DNA of 34,406 nt from Methanoregula sp. (GTDB lineage: Archaea; Halobacteriota; Methanomicrobia; Methanomicrobiales; Methanospirillaceae), in NCBI RefSeq assembly GCF_028712425.1, contig NZ_JAQTQD010000024.1, positions 1-34,406 of the forward strand, read 5' to 3'. The position numbers and the translations under genes were made by a program. Every line of letters begins with the position of its first letter. Positions within the stretch are counted from its first letter, which is position 1. Under the pieces are notes generated by a model. The model had not been told where the DNA came from. It searched no databases and saw only the letters and a list, made by a program, of their open reading frames with translations. Of the stretch, positions 19,164-34,406 are shown piece by piece.

Positions 19164-19670
19164 TCACAATGCTTTCTGAGCCGGGACTTGGTCCAGCAGA
19201 TCGAACCGCCGGAGGCAGGCTACGTATTCGGCCACGAGATAATAATTCCCCAGGTCCTCCACGTCCAGCCCGCGGAACGCGAAGAGCTCGTCCCACAGGA
19301 GACTGCTCCCCTCGACCATGAAGTACGCAGACTGGAGTTCGACTGCACCGATAATCGCCCTTCCCCGGAACATTTCGTCCTGGTTTTCATACAGGTGTTT
19401 TCCTGTCCCGGTGTTTTCCATGACAAAACCCTGTACCTCGGGAGTTATCCCCGCCGGCATCTTCCGTGCATGGCACTCGTTTGAGAGAATATTGTCCTCA
19501 ACAACATCGCGCAGGGCATCCGAGGTCAGTTCCCGCACGGGATATTTGCCGGTGAGATACGCGAGGACATCAGGACCGGTTTTTTTGTTGGGCTGAAGCA
19601 GGGGCCGGTACGTCTTTGCCGTTTCCTTCCACGTGCTGACCAGTTCCGGGGTGACTTTGCGGGTGAGCAT
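19164..19670 (-). CDS. Hypothetical protein, 168 aa
   Basis: 168 residues from ATG 19670, where the protein starts MLTRKVTPELVSTWKETAKTYRP; a longer frame to 20300 reads improbable sequence over the neighbouring gene and is not used. It is soluble, with segments VVEDNILSNECHARKMP, GFVMENTGTGKHLYENQDEM and ELFAFRGLDVEDLGNYYLVAEYV. I do not recognise the family. A TTTTATACC element 25-34 bp before the ATG fits a TATA box with a very short leader. It is convergent with the chagasin-like gene. Confidence 0.65.
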   Translation of the reverse strand: MLTRKVTPELVSTWKETAKTYRPLLQPNKKTGPDVLAYLTGKYPVRELTSDALRDVVEDNILSNECHARKMPAGITPEVQGFVMENTGTGKHLYENQDEMFRGRAIIGAVELQSAYFMVEGSSLLWDELFAFRGLDVEDLGNYYLVAEYVACLRRFDLLDQVPAQKAL

Positions 19671-21990: not shown

Positions 21991-22329
21991 CTAGCTGATC
22001 TCTTTTAAAAGTGCGGAGAATTCAGTTTCAAGAACCGGCAGATCATCGGTAAGGACACTCCAGACAATCTGCCAGTTTATCTCGAAATACCGGTGAATCA
22101 CTTTATCCCGCATACCGGCAATTTCCCGCCATGCAATACCGGGATGTTCTTCTTTGAGATGCGGCGAAAGGTTCTTAGACGCTTCCCCGATTACTTCGAT
22201 CGCACGGATGACTGCATGCGAGTAATACTGGTCTGAGAGAAGATCGTCGTAGTTCCGCCCATTGGTGATCTTCTGCAGAAATTGTATCTCATTGAGAATG
22301 TGAGTAACCAGGACCCGGTCATCCTTCAA
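21991..22329 (-). CDS. hepT: HepT-type HEPN toxin
   Basis: 112 residues of the HEPN (DUF86) family. The RNase motif R-x4-H-x-Y is present: R74, H79 and Y81 in AGMRDKVIHRYFEI. Family knowledge: such proteins are ribonuclease toxins neutralised by MntA, which adds AMP to the motif tyrosine. The start is TTG at 22329, and the 11-nt overlap with the mntA stop (22319) means translational coupling. A second copy in the window (29027-29375) is frameshifted. SHAVIRAIEVIGEASKNL fits the HEPN helix with the conserved family Glu. Confidence 0.85.
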   Translation of the reverse strand: MKDDRVLVTHILNEIQFLQKITNGRNYDDLLSDQYYSHAVIRAIEVIGEASKNLSPHLKEEHPGIAWREIAGMRDKVIHRYFEINWQIVWSVLTDDLPVLETEFSALLKEIS

Positions 22330-22642
22330 TCCAGATCACATCCTGTTCGATATAAGGCCGGATGAGTCCGGAGAGCGAAGGTTCCGTCAGAAGATCGACT
22401 TTGCGCCGGAACAGCGTTTCAAGATAATCCGATAGTCTCACGAAATTCCGGAGCGTTGCGTACCCGTCCTTAAAATCGACAAGGATATCGACATCGCTCT
22501 TTTTGGTCTCTTCACCGCGGGCAAACGAGCCGAAGATCCCGATCCGCGTCACCCCAAACGTACTGCGGATGGCCGGAGCTGCTGCTTCCAGTTTTTTTAT
22601 CACCGGGCTTTTCCTCCGTGGCCTTGCGATGAGTCCGGGCAT
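22319..22642 (-). CDS. mntA: MntA-type nucleotidyltransferase antitoxin
   Basis: 107 residues. The minimal nucleotidyltransferase signature is GSFARGEETKKSDVDILVDF (about 38-57), with the metal-binding D-x-D. It should neutralise HepT by AMPylation. The N-terminal MPGLIARPRRKSP is basic. ATG 22642 has AAGGA 5 nt upstream. The 5' half of the gene, up to codon ~46, is identical in DNA to the paralogue at 29365-29688 while the remainder is diverged, so it is a mosaic (see findings). It overlaps hepT. Confidence 0.88.
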   Translation of the reverse strand: MPGLIARPRRKSPVIKKLEAAAPAIRSTFGVTRIGIFGSFARGEETKKSDVDILVDFKDGYATLRNFVRLSDYLETLFRRKVDLLTEPSLSGLIRPYIEQDVIWIEG

Positions 22643-22861: not shown

Positions 22862-23036
22862 AAACCCTGCAAAGAATGAAAACAGAACGATAAGGTAAAA
22901 AGAGACGAATTGCCCCGCGCAGGTTTTTACTTACGCCGGGAGAGATCTCTTCCGGCCAATCCCTGCTCATTTCATTTTCCTTTTCTTACCGGGTACCTTT
23001 CGTATCTTCGAACGTGTAGCTGATTGGGACAGAAAT

Positions 23037-23060
23037 CATATATATATCATCATTATAAAT
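23037..23060 (+). promoter_or_regulatory. Promoter of peptidase A leader
   Basis: Two TATA-like boxes lie in a row: ATATATATATC at about 23038 and ATTATAAATT at about 23053. Both are kept in copies B and C except for a change in the first box of B. Transcription is predicted to begin near 23067-23080, making a 5' leader of about 150-165 nt before the start codon. Confidence 0.5.
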
Positions 23061-23064
23061 TGCA

Positions 23065-23232
23065 CATTGTGGACAGCCGGGGGTTGTTCCACGAAAAGAA
23101 GAGGACGGGTTCACCAAGCGACAACCCTGTGTTGAACCCGGTCCCGCCCGTAGGCATGAGATTGTTATCTTCCGATCCTATGAAGGTTTTCCCCTGCCGG
23201 CGAGCGAAGGCTATCAAAAAAGGTGAGAACAA
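23065..23232 (+). ncRNA. Structured 5' leader of peptidase A (candidate regulatory RNA)
   Basis: Two good hairpins can be drawn. H1 is 23069-23092: GTGGACAGCC pairs with GGTTGTTCCAC, loop of 3 nt. H2 is 23103-23144: GGACGGGTTCA pairs with TGAACCCGGTCC, one bulge, 19-nt loop. A ribosome-binding site GGTGAG lies 5 nt before the ATG. The same leader precedes the second peptidase and continues at the right edge of the window. It matches no riboswitch I know. It could be a leader RNA, attenuator or sRNA target. Confidence 0.45.
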
Positions 23233-24423
23233 ATGAGCATACGTAAAACGTTTGTCATCCTGCAGGCGTTGCTGCTGGCAGGGATGGTAATGGTACCGAT
23301 GGTGAATGCCGATAAGGCCTCATCTGCATCGGATATAGTAACGCTTGTTGATAAAAATGCTATTTCAGAGGATACTGCTCTCCAGTCTGCACGTGCTGCG
23401 GTCGAAGATTTTGTCAGCAGAGGTGCACTTGACAATAACTGGGACGGGGCAACCGTAGATCCCAAATCAGACATTATCTATGACCTCAACGAAAAACCAC
23501 TATTCTATCTCTTCTCTGTTGAGAGCAAAGGGAAAAGAATCGGTGAGATCAAGGCCGCAGCGAGCAAGGTTGTCGGGGGTGCCATTGTCACGATCGGCCC
23601 CGGCGCCGGACCTGTCGATCTGGATTCCGCCAAAACGCACGCCAGAGAGATCATCGAAAAAGAATACAAGGGAACGGTAATCAACTCAATGACTCTGGTA
23701 TGTTATGATTATCCCGACATGGCGATATTATTCAGGTTCTCTGCGCCGGGATCGAAGGAAAAAACCCTGATACTGGACGCGTATGATTTCTCAGTTATTC
23801 CGGAGTCAAAACAGGTCTCCTATTATAACGGGATCCATTCGTCGGATATCAGCACCCGTATTGCAAATGCCGAATCCGAACAGGATTCCCTCATGAACCG
23901 GCAGACCGTATTATCAGTTAAAGCAGGGGCGACCAAGACTCTGAGCGGATTCCCCCTTTATGCTCAGCAGGCAAATGGGTGGTGTCCTTTTGCGACAGCC
24001 CAGATGATATCCGGATACTATGGATATTCGCGAACACAATCCGGAATCGCCAGTACCATGGGAATATCAAACCCCGGTAACGGTGCCACACTCCAGGAAA
24101 CCCTCTCGAATTATTATCAGCTATCTACGGCATCCGGCGGATTAGGAAAACCGAATTCCCAACTCAGGTATACCGGCATGTTCTCGTATGATGATTTTAT
24201 TAGCAATCTGAGCGCAAACCGCCCCCAGCATGCAAGCCGCTATGAATCATTGTCCCTTCACGCACGTGCTGTTGCCGGGTATTCGTATTCGTCTGCATCA
24301 TCACAGTATCTGTATATCTACGATCCAGGCCCGGTCAATGTGGGATCCCCGTACTGGGAAAACTGGAATACCTTCCTGTCAGGATCAAATCCGGTGCAAG
24401 GAGTTATTTTCATCAGAAACTAA
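23233..24423 (+). CDS. Secreted C39-like cysteine peptidase A
   Basis: 396 residues. Signal peptide at about 1-26 (LLLAGMVMVPMVNA). Residues about 30-230 form a pro-like region with PLFYLFSVESKGKRIGEIKAAASK and LDAYDFSVIPE. The C-terminal domain is a papain-like/C39 fold: oxyanion Gln at 245, nucleophile C251 in NGWCPFATAQMISGYYG, H343 in SLHARAVAGYSY and D364 in YLYIYDPGP. The protein is thus a plausible active secreted cysteine peptidase made as a zymogen. GGTGAG lies 5 nt before the ATG. A propeller gene follows 18 bp downstream, then a membrane-anchored protein and a chagasin-like inhibitor on the same strand. A paralogue is at 30282. Confidence 0.85.
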   Translation: MSIRKTFVILQALLLAGMVMVPMVNADKASSASDIVTLVDKNAISEDTALQSARAAVEDFVSRGALDNNWDGATVDPKSDIIYDLNEKPLFYLFSVESKGKRIGEIKAAASKVVGGAIVTIGPGAGPVDLDSAKTHAREIIEKEYKGTVINSMTLVCYDYPDMAILFRFSAPGSKEKTLILDAYDFSVIPESKQVSYYNGIHSSDISTRIANAESEQDSLMNRQTVLSVKAGATKTLSGFPLYAQQANGWCPFATAQMISGYYGYSRTQSGIASTMGISNPGNGATLQETLSNYYQLSTASGGLGKPNSQLRYTGMFSYDDFISNLSANRPQHASRYESLSLHARAVAGYSYSSASSQYLYIYDPGPVNVGSPYWENWNTFLSGSNPVQGVIFIRN

Positions 24424-27488: not shown

Positions 27489-28361
27489 ATGAAACCAGCC
27501 ATCATCAGACGTCTTCACAAACATTTTAAGGATTTCGTCCACGTGCAGGATGGTGTAGAGTTCTGGTTTGCCCGTGATTTGCAGGGCCTTCTCGGGTACG
27601 ATGAATGGAGGAATTTTTTAAACGTTATCGAAAAAGCAAAAGAGTCCTGTACATCTTCAGGTAATACCGTAGCAGACCATTTCGTTGACGCCAACAAAAT
27701 GGTTCTCCTCGGATCGGGATCGCAAAGGAAGATCGAAGATCTCCTGCTCACCCGCTATGCCTGTTACCTCATCGCCCAGAACGGGGACCCGCGTAAGGAA
27801 GAGATCGCGTTTGCCCAGAGTTATTTCGCAGTGCAGACCCGAAAGCAGGAGATCATCGAAGACCACATCCGGCTTTCCGAGCGACTGAAAGCAAGGAAAC
27901 ACCTGAAGGATTCCGAAAAAGAATTATCCCGGAATATCTACGAACGGGGCGTGGATGAATCGGGTTTTGCCCGTATCCGCAGTAAAGGGGACGAAGCCCT
28001 GTTTGGCGGTCACTCCACCCACGCGATGAAGGAGCGCCTCGAAGTTCCTCAAAGCAGGCCTCTTGCGGATTTTCTCCCGACCGTTACTATCACCGCCAAG
28101 AACCTCGCAACCGAGATCACGAATTTCAATGTCTCCAAGGAGGATATCCATGGGGAAGATCCAATCACGACCGAACATGTTCAGAACAACCAGGACGTCC
28201 GGGACCTTCTCCTGAAACGGGGAATCTGTCCTGAAGCCCTGCCACCGGAAGAAGATCTCGTAAAACTGGAGCGAAGGGTCAAATCACAGGAGAAGACGAT
28301 TGCCGGACGCTCGGGGAAAATTGTTTCATCATCACCGGATGAGAGATGCGGTAAACCATGA
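27489..28361 (+). CDS. DinD-like (BRO-N type) protein
   Basis: 290 residues that follow DNA-damage-inducible protein D: FWFARDLQGLLGYDEWRNFLNVIEKAKESC near residue 25, HFVDANKMVLLGSGSQRKIEDLLLTRYACYLIAQNGDPRK (about 65-103) and the helical EEIAFAQSYFAVQTRKQE. In E. coli the homologous protein is induced by DNA damage; related BRO-N proteins occur in phages and toxin-like loci. The C-terminal third is charged. The stop codon overlaps the start of the next gene (ATGA), so the two are coupled. AT-rich ATATATG and TAATATTTC stretches before the ATG may hold the promoter. Confidence 0.85.
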   Translation: MKPAIIRRLHKHFKDFVHVQDGVEFWFARDLQGLLGYDEWRNFLNVIEKAKESCTSSGNTVADHFVDANKMVLLGSGSQRKIEDLLLTRYACYLIAQNGDPRKEEIAFAQSYFAVQTRKQEIIEDHIRLSERLKARKHLKDSEKELSRNIYERGVDESGFARIRSKGDEALFGGHSTHAMKERLEVPQSRPLADFLPTVTITAKNLATEITNFNVSKEDIHGEDPITTEHVQNNQDVRDLLLKRGICPEALPPEEDLVKLERRVKSQEKTIAGRSGKIVSSSPDERCGKP

Positions 28362-29026: not shown

Positions 29027-29375
29027 TCAGGAGTGTTGATCCATATCCCGGAGAATTGTAAAAATCGCTGGTTTCACTTCAGGAAGATCGTTGACGATGA
29101 CATCCCAGACAATTGAATAATCGATCCGGAAATACCCATGGATGATCCTGTTGCGAAGGGCGGCCATCTCTTTTTTAGGGAAGATCCGGGTATTCCCCTT
29201 TTACCGACTCAGGGACATTATTTGCCGCTTCGCCGATTACTTCAATCGCACTCCGGACTGCGTGGCTGAAATAATCGTCATTGATGAGATCATTGAGGGT
29301 CCGATCTTTCGCTATCCGTTCCAGGAACGCGATCTCGTCAAGGATATGCCGGAGATAGACGCTGTCATCCTTCAA
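29027..29375 (-). pseudogene. hepT homologue disrupted by a frameshift
   Basis: A HEPN toxin gene like that at 21991-22329. It starts at TTG 29375, overlaps mntA copy 2 by 11 nt, and reads 66 codons ending ...GEYPDLP before a stop (TAA at about 29175). In the -1 frame the sequence continues KKEMAALRNRIIHGYFRID to a stop at 29027, with the motif R-x4-H-x-Y intact. Removing one C from the CCC before the A6 run restores one reading frame of normal length. It is either a true frameshift or a sequencing error. Confidence 0.75.
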
Positions 29376-29688
29376 TCCAGATCACCTCGGCCTCAATTCG
29401 GGGCCGGATGTACTTGTCAATCCCTTCGACCGTGATGAGATCCACATTCCTCATGAACAGGGCTTCCAGTCGCTCCGCAAGGGCAACAAAATTTTTCAGG
29501 GTAGCGTGTCCTTCGGCAAAGTCCACGACAACGTCAACATCGCTCTTCTTTGTCTCTTCACCGCGGGCAAACGAGCCGAAGATCCCGATCCGCGTCACCC
29601 CAAACGTACTGCGGATGGCCGGAGCTGCTGCTTCCAGTTTTTTTATCACCGGGCTTTTCCTCCGTGGCCTTGCGATGAGTCCGGGCAT
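29365..29688 (-). CDS. mntA: MntA-type nucleotidyltransferase antitoxin, copy 2
   Basis: 107 residues. GSFARGEETKKSDVDVVVDF carries the nucleotidyltransferase signature with D-x-D. The first ~50 residues are identical to copy 1 (22319-22642), after which the proteins diverge (AEGHATLKNFVALAERLEALFMRN against KDGYATLRNFVRLSDYLETLFRRK). The adjacent toxin is frameshifted, so the gene may no longer be needed or may act on the HepT encoded by copy A. Confidence 0.85.
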   Translation of the reverse strand: MPGLIARPRRKSPVIKKLEAAAPAIRSTFGVTRIGIFGSFARGEETKKSDVDVVVDFAEGHATLKNFVALAERLEALFMRNVDLITVEGIDKYIRPRIEAEVIWIEG

Positions 29689-30250
29689 GCCGTTCCTTCC
29701 TATATGGAATTGGACATCCGGGTACTATAAGGATATGGGGAGGACAGGAATGCTGGGCCGGTATCGTGAAGTCTCGAACGAAGGGGGCAGGCTGGGCACC
29801 GCCATATCCGACCGATTGGTTTTGTGTTGCCCGGTGCCGGCGGGGGTGCTGGCCGGTTGTGGAGTGTGGGGGCCGTTGCCCGGGGAGGGGAGAGGGGGCG
29901 GCCGGAAACCCTGCACAAAATAAAAACAGAACGATAAGATAAAAAGTGACGAATTTCCCCGCGCAGGTTATCACTTACGCCGGGAGAGATCTCTTCCGGC
30001 CAATCCCTGCTCATTTCATTTTCCTTTTCTCACCGGGTACCTTTCGTCTTTTCGAATGTGTAGCTGATTGGGACAGAAATCATGTATATCATCATTATAA
30101 ATTGCACATTGTGGACAGCCGGAGGTTGTTCCACGAAAAGAAGAGGACGGGCTCACCAAGCGACAAACCTGTGTTGAACCCGGTCCCGCCCGTAGGCATG
30201 AGATTGTTATCTTCCGATCCTATGAAGGTTTCCCATGCCGGCGAGCGAAG
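29552..30250. repeat. Repeat block, copy B (mntA 5' half to peptidase leader)
   Basis: The second copy of the ~700-bp block at 22506-23209. Offset 7046 bp over the first 166 bp, with no difference seen. Differences concentrate in the GC-rich middle. It ends about 31 bp before the second C39-like peptidase start. Confidence 0.85.
29783..29905. repeat. GC-rich G-run element, copy B
   Basis: Contains GCCCGGTGCCGGCGGGGGTG and ends in GAGAGGGGGCGGCCGG. It is the closest relative of the partial copy F at 27283. Confidence 0.65.
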
Positions 30251-30281: not shown

Positions 30282-31559
30282 ATGAACCTACACAAAACAG
30301 TAATCGTCCTGCTGGCGCTGTTGTTAGCGGGGATGGCAATGGTACCTTTGGTGAGCGCGGCGGAAGATCAGAAAATGAAGGAGTTACGTCCGATCATTGA
30401 AGAGAATTATGTTTCTGCAGATAGAGCTCAGTCCCAGGCATCTTATGCCCTGTTGGAATTTGTGAGCACAGGTGCACTCGGGGATAAGTCAATCTGGATT
30501 GGAGGAAAAATTAAACCAGATCCTTTGATTATTTACGATATTGACGGCACGAGATTATTCTATCTCTTTACCATCGAAAAGAACAACGGAAAGATCGGTG
30601 AGATAAAAATTGCCGCAAGTAAAATATTAGGAAACCCGGTCGTTACTATCGGGCCTGGAAAATCATCAATTAATCTGAATCAACTGGAAAAGAAATCCCG
30701 TGCTGAAGCGCAAAAAAATGCAAAACCATCAACAACCATCACAACTCAGCTTGTCAGCTATGCATATCCCAACCTAGGGATGATAGCATATTACACGGAT
30801 AATCTCACAAATATTCAGCAAAACGTAATAATCGACGCATATGATTATTCGATCATTCCGGAAAAAGCTCCTCAATTTGAGGGCGACCAGGGAATTGTTT
30901 CTTACTATGAAACATATCCTTATGATAAAAAGACCGAATTCATTGAATCCTGGTTAAAATATGATCAATATGTAACCGAAACGGAAAAAACGAATTTGTA
31001 TCTTACGACTGACATGAGTGGTGAAATAACAGAAAAACGTCTCCAAGAATATACAGCAAAACTGACTTCTCTAAAAGCCGCGTCCGAATACCGGGTTCTA
31101 TCCTCATTCCCCCTAATCGGTGCGGAAACGACTGAATGGTGTACTGTTGGTACTGCCAAGATGATCTCCCAGTATTATGGAGTGTCACGAACTCAGACTC
31201 AAATTGCCACTCGGATGGGAATTCCGGTATCCATTCCATATAGAGGTGCAACCATCAATGAAGAACTGAACTATTATACGGGATCAATCGCATCAGGAGG
31301 ATTGGGAAAAACTGGTTCCCGTGATTATTACACGATTAACTGGGATGACAGCAAGAAAGAGATCGATGAAAATCGCCCATTTAAAGTAGGGACCGGAATC
31401 CATGCAAAGGCCGCTATCGGCTATATCCGATCTCCGTCCAATGGATTTACCTATCTCTATTTCAAAGATCCCTCACCGCTGGGCCAAGGATCGGAATACT
31501 GGGAATGGTTTAATGAATTAAATCCCCAATTCTATAACAATCATATAAAAATAAATTAA
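30282..31559 (+). CDS. Secreted C39-like cysteine peptidase B
   Basis: 425 residues. Signal peptide at about 1-26 (LLALLLAGMAMVPLVSA). The pro-like region (about 30-270) shares LFYLFTIEKNNGKIGEIKIAASK with peptidase A and is longer by ~30 residues. The catalytic domain has C287 in TEWCTVGTAKMISQYYG, H374 in GIHAKAAIGY and D396 in YLYFKDPSP. The Gln expected six residues before the Cys is Ala (A281), so the oxyanion hole may be incomplete. The DNA is AT-rich compared with the left part of the window. The next gene follows at 34 bp. The leader and promoter are shared with peptidase A. Confidence 0.82.
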   Translation: MNLHKTVIVLLALLLAGMAMVPLVSAAEDQKMKELRPIIEENYVSADRAQSQASYALLEFVSTGALGDKSIWIGGKIKPDPLIIYDIDGTRLFYLFTIEKNNGKIGEIKIAASKILGNPVVTIGPGKSSINLNQLEKKSRAEAQKNAKPSTTITTQLVSYAYPNLGMIAYYTDNLTNIQQNVIIDAYDYSIIPEKAPQFEGDQGIVSYYETYPYDKKTEFIESWLKYDQYVTETEKTNLYLTTDMSGEITEKRLQEYTAKLTSLKAASEYRVLSSFPLIGAETTEWCTVGTAKMISQYYGVSRTQTQIATRMGIPVSIPYRGATINEELNYYTGSIASGGLGKTGSRDYYTINWDDSKKEIDENRPFKVGTGIHAKAAIGYIRSPSNGFTYLYFKDPSPLGQGSEYWEWFNELNPQFYNNHIKIN

Positions 31560-32526: not shown

Positions 32527-32530
32527 TTTA

Positions 32531-32807
32531 AAGGCTGTAAGAGGGCAATGCAACGAAGCGTACAATGGTTGTATCCCTGGTTGAAATTTGCCTAGTAAAA
32601 CTGATGTGATCAAAGCTCAACGTTGTTGTAGAACAAAAGGCTGTAAGAGGGCAATGCAACGAAACGTACGACAGTTGTATCCCTGACTGAAATTAGCCTA
32701 GTAAAACTGACGTGATCAAAGCTCAACGTTGTTGTAGAACAAAAGGCTGTAAGAAGGCAATGCAACGAAACGTACGATGGTTGTACCCTTGACTGAAATT
32801 AGCCTAA
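32531..32807 (+). repeat. Tandem 106-bp repeats, 2.6 copies, candidate repeat RNA
   Basis: Units begin with AAGGCTGTAAGAGGGCAATG at 32531, 32637 and 32743 (period 106). The third is cut after about 65 bp, 24 bp before the antitoxin ATG. Each unit folds into a hairpin: CAAC (unit positions 21-24) with GTTG (38-41) and GGG (13-15) with CCC (45-47). In unit 3, position 13 changes G to A and its partner position 47 changes C to T, keeping the pair. There are no variable spacers, so it is not CRISPR. Confidence 0.75.
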
Positions 32808-32831
32808 TCGAAAGAACCGAGCTGAGCCACC

Positions 32832-33056
32832 ATGACAGAAGTCGCAAATAAAAGAATCCCGGTAACGGAGGAGATCTGGGAATCCCTCGCGGGCTTAAAA
32901 AAACACGGGCAGACGTACGACCAGCTCCTAGCGGAGATGATCGCACTCAAGCAGGAACGTGATTTTCTGGCCCACATTGAGGAAATCGAAAAGAACGGTG
33001 AATTTGTCAGCTTGAAGGATGCTGCAAAGAGACTGAAAATCCCAAATCTGAAATGA
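32832..33056 (+). CDS. Antitoxin of the RelE-type operon (DUF7557-like)
   Basis: 74 residues: MTEVANKRIPVTEEIWESLAGLKKHGQTYDQLLAEM... The opening reads like an RHH/CopG-type or AbrB-like antitoxin start (KRIPVTEEIWESLAGLK), and the second half is helical, as expected for the part that wraps around a RelE toxin (EIEKNGEFVSLKDAAKRL). The gene lies 24 bp after the tandem repeats and 69 bp before the toxin. Only a weak ribosome-binding site is visible. DUF7557 is a family name offered from memory. Confidence 0.72.
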   Translation: MTEVANKRIPVTEEIWESLAGLKKHGQTYDQLLAEMIALKQERDFLAHIEEIEKNGEFVSLKDAAKRLKIPNLK

Positions 33057-34065: not shown

Positions 34066-34406
34066 ATGGGGGGCAGGGGGTGGGCATCGCCCTATCCGGG
34101 CGGAGGGCTTTGTGCTGGCTGAGGGCGGAGGGGGTGCTGGCCGAGGATGTGGTGAGGGGGGTCGGAGAGCCTGCATCAAATGAAAAACAGAATGATAAGA
34201 TAAAAAGTGACGAATTTCCCCGCGCAGGTTATCACTTACGCCGGGAGAGATCTCTTCAAGCCAATTACGGCTCATTTCGTTTTCCTTTTCTTACCGGGTA
34301 CCTTTCGTATCTTCGAACGTGTAGCTGATTGGGACAGAAATCATATATATATCATCATTATAAATTGCACATTGTGGACAGCCGGGGGTTGTTCCACGAA
34401 AAGAAG
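34066..34406. repeat. Repeat block, copy C, running off the right edge
   Basis: Starts with a GC-rich element (GGGCGGAGGGCTTTGTGCTG and GAGGGGGTGCTGGCCGAGG) and continues with the same promoter region as copies A and B (CCCCGCGCAGGTTATCACTT, then both TATA boxes) and the first leader hairpin (34374-34397). It lacks the mntA part of the block. The window ends 9 nt after the hairpin. A third peptidase-like gene should begin about 130-160 bp beyond the edge, if the pattern holds. Confidence 0.8.

Follow-up and report, generated by a model that had tools for sequence, protein, structure and literature searches.

A candidate class of structured leader RNAs precedes genes for exported proteins in methanogenic archaea

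The window that we analyzed, a stretch of 34,406 nucleotides, is one whole contig of a Methanoregula draft genome (2.67 Mb) and contains two genes for secreted peptidases, A and B, each behind a copy of the same noncoding repeat, as well as a third copy, C, at the contig end. The repeats start at 22.88, 29.92, and 34.18 kb, around 150 bp 5′ of TATA-like boxes, and the leader copies lie at 23.0 kb (A), 30.1 kb (B), and 34.2 kb (C). The first TATA-like box of copy A puts the predicted 5′ end near position 23069. Judging from the sequence, the region most likely combines a promoter with the 5′ untranslated leader of an mRNA for a secreted protein, this leader being about 140 nt long and comprising three hairpins (H1, H2, and H3). 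The features of the window are as follows:

22879–23036 (+): promoter-upstream repeat common to copies A, B, and C, with 94% identity to B; homogenised or duplicated tract
23037–23061 (+): TATA-like boxes of copy A, ATATATAT and TTATAAAT, from the sequence and from spacing relative to other leaders
23069–23092 (+): H1, hairpin at the predicted 5′ end in Methanoregula-type leaders only, from the fold
23103–23144 (+): H2, core hairpin GGGUUCA/UGAACCC with flanking GGAC/GGUCC, from covariation in two clades
23145–23206 (+): H3, long core hairpin CGCC/GGCG, GGCAUGA/..UGCC, and AUCUUC/GAAGGU with near-invariant GCCCGNAGGCA, from fold and covariation
23221–23227 (+): Shine-Dalgarno-like sequence AGGUGAG in copy A, whose H3 has a 3′ arm without complementarity to it
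23233–23310 (+): signal-peptide codons of gene A (MSIRKTFVILQALLLAGMVMVPMVNA), from signal-peptide matches behind leaders
23233–24423 (+): gene A, secreted Peptidase_C39_2 protein of 396 aa (Pfam PF13529, E 1.6e-12)
30111–30250 (+): leader copy B with H1, H2, and H3 (match to covariance model R1, see below, of 133.9 bits)
30282–31559 (+): gene B, secreted Peptidase_C39_2 protein of 425 aa (Pfam PF13529, E 1.1e-6)
34184–34406 (+): copy C, with its promoter region and 33 nt of the leader before the contig end cuts off the rest; from the repeat comparison

Copies A and B are 94% identical over the 158 bp 5′ of the TATA-like boxes, 93% from these boxes to the start of H1, and 97% over the leader (23069–23209), compared to 77% between leader and ATG, 73% in the signal-peptide portion of the genes, and 65% in the portion for the mature proteins; A and C share 95% identity over 223 bp. 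Chance similarity is excluded by the E-values of a DNA search (1e-147 for B, 4e-97 for C, and 2e-54 for an additional copy outside this contig). The initial annotation had described the copies as nearly alike from around 150 bp before the TATA boxes and as better conserved than the peptidase genes that they precede, and both observations hold, given that the proteins behind the 97% identical leaders share only about 40% of their residues. Its view that the two peptidases are only distantly alike outside motifs was right about their divergence but slightly overstated, with 37–42% protein identity over the whole length. H1 and H2, which it had drawn, can indeed be drawn in the leader, and it missed the additional, larger hairpin H3. 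Because the contig end cuts copy C inside the leader (34374–34406), this copy is uninformative on most of the element, and it was probably the repeat itself that broke the assembly.

Further upstream, the similarity of A and B takes in a duplicated gene for a nucleotidyltransferase (234 bp at 91% identity): Near-identical genes of the MNT type (NTP_transf_2) with diverged C-termini lie 5′ of both leaders on the reverse strand (22319–22642 and 29365–29688) as part of the same duplicated tract. Between the peptidase loci, positions 27489–28361 encode a protein with a Bro-N domain (PF02498), a domain family associated with viruses and mobile elements, and a 106-bp unit is found at 32530–32847 in three head-to-tail copies (92% and 63% identity to the first).

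When the leader was used as a DNA query, copies turned up on three other contigs of the same genome, and their alignment showed the common promoter as well as H1, H2, and H3. We searched further with covariance models built from twelve own-genome leaders (R1), from 71 divergent leaders using H2 and H3 only (R2), and from 32 leaders of which 25 are Methanosarcinales or ANME-type (R3). This search, which the initial annotation had proposed, matched the leader at 18 places in its own genome and then in its genus, its order, Methanosarcina, and a sample of the phylum. R1 matched 24 of 39 Methanoregula genomes, including 26 copies in one complete genome of 2.82 Mb, and also reached other families of the order, while R2 matched 75 of 232 genomes of the order (Methanomicrobiales) and 65 of 392 in the phylum sample. 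R3 matched 89 of these 392 and, with up to 30 copies each, 26 of 30 genomes of the genus that we take to be Methanosarcina, home of M. acetivorans C2A (5,751,492-bp chromosome); a genome with 14 leader copies is presumably that of M. acetivorans. The leader is often present in 10–30 copies per genome. A pattern scan of named genomes gave matches in Methanohalophilus, Methanoregula, Methanococcoides, and Methanosarcina as well as on a single bacterial contig from a “Syntrophomonadaceae” metagenome-assembled genome. We rejected the latter as a sign of the leader in bacteria, since its TATA-like promoter, typical leader, and signal-peptide gene probably mark misbinned methanogen or ANME DNA. One R1 match inside an enzyme gene was discarded as a false positive. 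On the sense strand, no Rfam 15 family reached its gathering threshold at the leader loci that were scanned.

Compensatory changes support H2, and also H3, in two separate clades, as the covariation check suggested by the initial annotation revealed. Across the 12 own-genome leaders, 25 double-changed cells compare to 11.7 ± 3.2 after shuffling, and 87% of cells are paired compared to 33–43% when the strands are slid; H1 is paired in 96% of cells, with an A-U to G-C change in 2 of these leaders. An alignment of 71 Methanomicrobiales leaders contains 75 double-changed paired cells (28.7 ± 4.7 shuffled), distributed over 15 of 21 pairs, with 86% paired compared to 29–51% when slid. In an alignment of 32 mainly Methanosarcinales leaders, all 11 pairs of H2 show double changes, amounting to 65 cells (22.4 ± 4.9 shuffled, 8–23 slid). 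The shuffle-based controls ignore relatedness and are inflated by shared ancestry. Parsimony on a tree of the 71 leaders yielded 17.2 double compensatory events compared to 1.3 ± 1.0 with permuted partners (0/400). A tree-based test of single pairs found none significant; its null was very wide, wider than the observed scores, which left the test without power. RNAalifold recovered H1-H2-H3 from 10–14 own-genome leaders and returned no consensus structure for the 71-sequence alignment. With a conserved structure that carries compensatory changes and a sense-strand position before start codons, the element has the hallmarks of a cis-regulatory structured leader, and matches in many genomes together with the changes in H2 and H3 favor the regulatory RNA that the initial annotation had considered. 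Two specific RNA-binding scenarios were rejected: A kink-turn bound by L7Ae would need a 3-nt bulge with tandem G·A pairs behind it, but inspection of both large alignments showed no GA opposite GAUGA in the 5′ strand of H2, and a CsrA-type reading of the GGA loop of H1 is at odds with H1 not being universal and with CsrA not being known from archaea.

The genes behind the leader have their export in common. Among downstream open reading frames of at least 120 aa, 97% (R1 set) and 95% (R2 set) encode a hydrophobic N-terminal segment compared to 38% of 148 background ORFs, and the start codon lies 10–45 nt 3′ of the element in 84% of 144. In the genome of the window, all 14 matches to the signal peptide MNIPKTWVVLLALLLAAMAMVPMVSA are located behind a leader. 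By similarity of their mature parts, 102 downstream proteins fall into 26 clusters that include C39-like peptidases and one reprolysin-like metallopeptidase, and many lack a Pfam match; judged by eye from their sequences alone, others look trypsin-like, transglutaminase-like, or phospholipase-like (one each). The idea of the initial annotation that the leader coordinates secreted peptidases is therefore borne out for secretion, with signal-peptide-like N-termini, but the 26 clusters go beyond peptidases, and this diversity rules out a peptidase-specific regulon. We propose instead that the leader class marks mRNAs of exported proteins in methanogenic archaea. Short open reading frames that lack a signal peptide, some of which end in LNRKLNRLEQRICRLEG, follow a subgroup of leaders that have H1 and diverge in their 3′ part (AAGGAAGTGATAGCATAGAATC); these leaders were seen at:

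L027, 3052–3188 (-)
L081, 1754–1888 (-)
L099, 1710–1842 (-)
L109, 13363–13502 (+)
L132, 530–667 (+)

We consider it likely that the leader constitutes a widespread cis-acting RNA class acting as a translational switch on the mRNAs of exported proteins. In the ON state, the 3′ arm of H3 (UGCCUCC) would pair with the upstream GGCA, so that H3 is closed and the Shine-Dalgarno sequence is free; in the OFF state, this arm would pair with the Shine-Dalgarno sequence, and the freed GGCA could close a small hairpin with the UGCC directly 5′ of it. H2 would set the balance, perhaps together with a protein, a ligand, or, in Methanosarcina, an antisense RNA. Pairing of GGCA with the preceding UGCC across a loop of 4, 5, or 6 nucleotides is kept in 54 of 71 leaders, and constrained folds of 36 leaders place the states close in energy (OFF minus ON, 1.9 ± 4.3 kcal/mol). 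Leaders also match their own Shine-Dalgarno sequence better than expected from within-clade permutations, with a complementarity of 8.49 compared to 7.18 ± 0.26 in Methanosarcinales/ANME and of 5.70 compared to 5.19 ± 0.11 in Methanoregula (0/1000 each); examples are CCUCAU/AUGAGG, CUCCUAG/CUAGGAG, and CCACC/GGUGG. The same comparison was not significant in 20 other Methanomicrobiales.

This complementarity differs between two types of 3′ arm, with scores of 7.4 for GCCU-type and 3.9 for GCCG-type arms, and an ON/OFF switch is most likely the correct reading for the former. Copies A and B have the GCCG-type arm UGCCGGCG, which extends H3 and lacks an anti-Shine-Dalgarno sequence; switching is hence unsupported for these two copies, whose Shine-Dalgarno sequences stay free, and GCCG-type copies in general are probably ON by default or otherwise regulated. 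Such arms would suit a different role, in which folding of the leader stabilizes the mRNA or directs it to the membrane so that export can proceed during translation, with no switching involved. A target set defined by export in general rather than by a single pathway would agree with such a stability or localization element, as would the predicted position of the Methanoregula H1 as a 5′-terminal hairpin. However, GCCCGNAGGCA is near-invariant and the 3′ arm covaries with the Shine-Dalgarno sequence, both of which point to alternative pairing, and we regard this explanation as unlikely.

Coordination could also occur at the level of DNA, with a transcription factor binding a conserved promoter segment (e.g., GTTAAGTTTTGACCGACAAATCGTTTATA) or the H1 dyad near the predicted transcription start and the leader being a mere passenger. 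Many leaders of the own genome do share one promoter type, which on contig C41 is present as an inverted pair, and H1 is near-palindromic and close to the predicted start. However, at least 4 promoter types precede homologous leaders, Methanosarcina-type leaders lack both H1 and the own-genome promoter type, and conservation and covariation run on for around 100 nt into the transcript, which makes a DNA-level regulon improbable. Since promoters before homologous leaders differ in type, the conserved unit is the transcribed part, and H1 is a Methanoregula-type addition because Methanosarcina-type leaders do without it. Where the initial annotation had left the choice between a regulatory RNA and a common regulator, the evidence favors the RNA, and the several types of promoters make it less likely that a common regulator acting on DNA is the principal cause. 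At locus L031 (around 19206–19299), the promoter element GTGTAAAGTTTTGACCGACAAA forms an inverted pair between two divergent genes for secreted proteins, which suggests a putative regulator binding site besides the RNA.

In Methanosarcina, the leader meets a known antisense RNA. An Rfam scan located RF02792 (sRNA162) on the opposite strand, overlapping the leader, at three loci examined; this was the sole overlapping match at or above threshold, and its strong matches overlap the leader only partly. On the same strand, there was one sub-threshold match to RF02792 (49.7 bits with a cut-off of 78). Previous work in M. mazei had mapped the 5′ end of MM2442 by RACE to 184 nt before the annotated ATG, shown that sRNA162 binds the MM2442 5′ UTR in vitro with a 65-nt antisense overlap formed by the first 65 nt of sRNA162, and found no ribosome-binding site upstream of the annotated start (Jager et al. 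2012, PMC3510493). When we applied the 65-nt overlap to a homologous Methanosarcina locus, L196, an in-frame ATG fell exactly at +184 and the core element at +11, so that the published MM2442 5′ end fits a start around 10 nt 5′ of the core element. The same locus has GAGGTG at +129 followed by an in-frame UUG at +142; starting there would give the signal peptide a basic N-region, and use of such an upstream UUG start would explain the missing ribosome-binding site at the annotated one. Two MM2442-like genes (L196, 1988–2096 (-) and 8313–8420 (-)) probably start at a UUG behind GAGGTG, 42 nt 5′ of the annotated ATG. The antisense overlap at three loci and the binding in vitro could mean that the leader chiefly serves as a target for antisense RNAs like sRNA162 and sRNA171. 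We view this as very improbable given that RF02792 had no match at any Methanoregula or other Methanomicrobiales locus scanned and that homologues of sRNA162 are reported only from close Methanosarcina relatives (PMC3510493).

The history of the copies within genomes is a separate matter. In close relative G040, the orthologue of gene A shares 99% protein identity and 99.6% of codon bases while its leader is only 86% identical; the G040 leader nearest to that of A (95%) precedes another gene, and this genome has three leaders of identical sequence. Because orthologous genes carry different variants and same-genome copies are near identical, the leader appears to move and homogenise within genomes. 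That A, B, and C are almost identical, which the initial annotation had taken as a sign of regulatory constraint, is thus explained by recent gene conversion or duplication and provides no evidence of constraint, which comes instead from covariation across genera and orders. That the leader is altogether a functionless recombination tract, as these G040 leaders and the identity continuing 150 bp upstream and into the duplicated nucleotidyltransferase gene might suggest, is scarcely credible when distant genera and Methanosarcinales share a homologous structure with compensatory changes and leaders persist despite differing downstream genes and promoters. Gene conversion alone, the refutation that the initial annotation had envisaged, is therefore contradicted by cross-family covariation and applies only to the near identity of the window copies.

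Beyond a translational switch as such, we tentatively envision a riboswitch-like class of archaea that might sense the state of the envelope or of secretion and set the translation of much of the exported proteome in Methanomicrobiales, Methanosarcinales, and ANME relatives, spread by gene conversion of a cassette of leader and signal peptide; we would put this wider scenario at slightly below even chances. The leader may help to reveal how surface and extracellular proteins are coordinated in methanogens, and its many copies in genetically tractable Methanosarcina make it directly testable. It also flags a large number of archaeal exported proteins, most of them unannotated, points to a corrected start site for MM2442-like genes, and hints at an origin of sRNA162 and sRNA171 from antisense transcription to leader copies.

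Native structured regulatory leaders in archaea are, to our knowledge, few. The literature that we searched, outside of which many subscription papers lie, contained no published description of this leader class and no structured archaeal leader controlling secreted proteins as a class. Within these sources and the databases searched, the class, its phylogenetic spread, its copy number, and its target set are thus new, whereas the structured cis-regulatory leader as a kind is known. Like bacterial translational riboswitches, the leader is a 5′ UTR with putative competing helices near the Shine-Dalgarno sequence and a regulon of many copies, but it is archaeal, has no recognized ligand-binding domain and no Rfam match, and its targets share an export route rather than a metabolic pathway. 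The archaeal fluoride (crcB) riboswitch and ribosomal-protein leaders of Methanomicrobia (PMC2864571, PMC7247131) are likewise structured cis-acting archaeal leaders; they control other genes through other structures, and the Rfam scan was negative for our element. Finally, sRNA162 (RF02792) is an opposite-strand antisense RNA of a few Methanosarcina species in whose description the sense leader family does not figure, yet it shares the same DNA with the leader at some Methanosarcina loci and is antisense to the 5′ UTR of a leader-type gene, MM2442.
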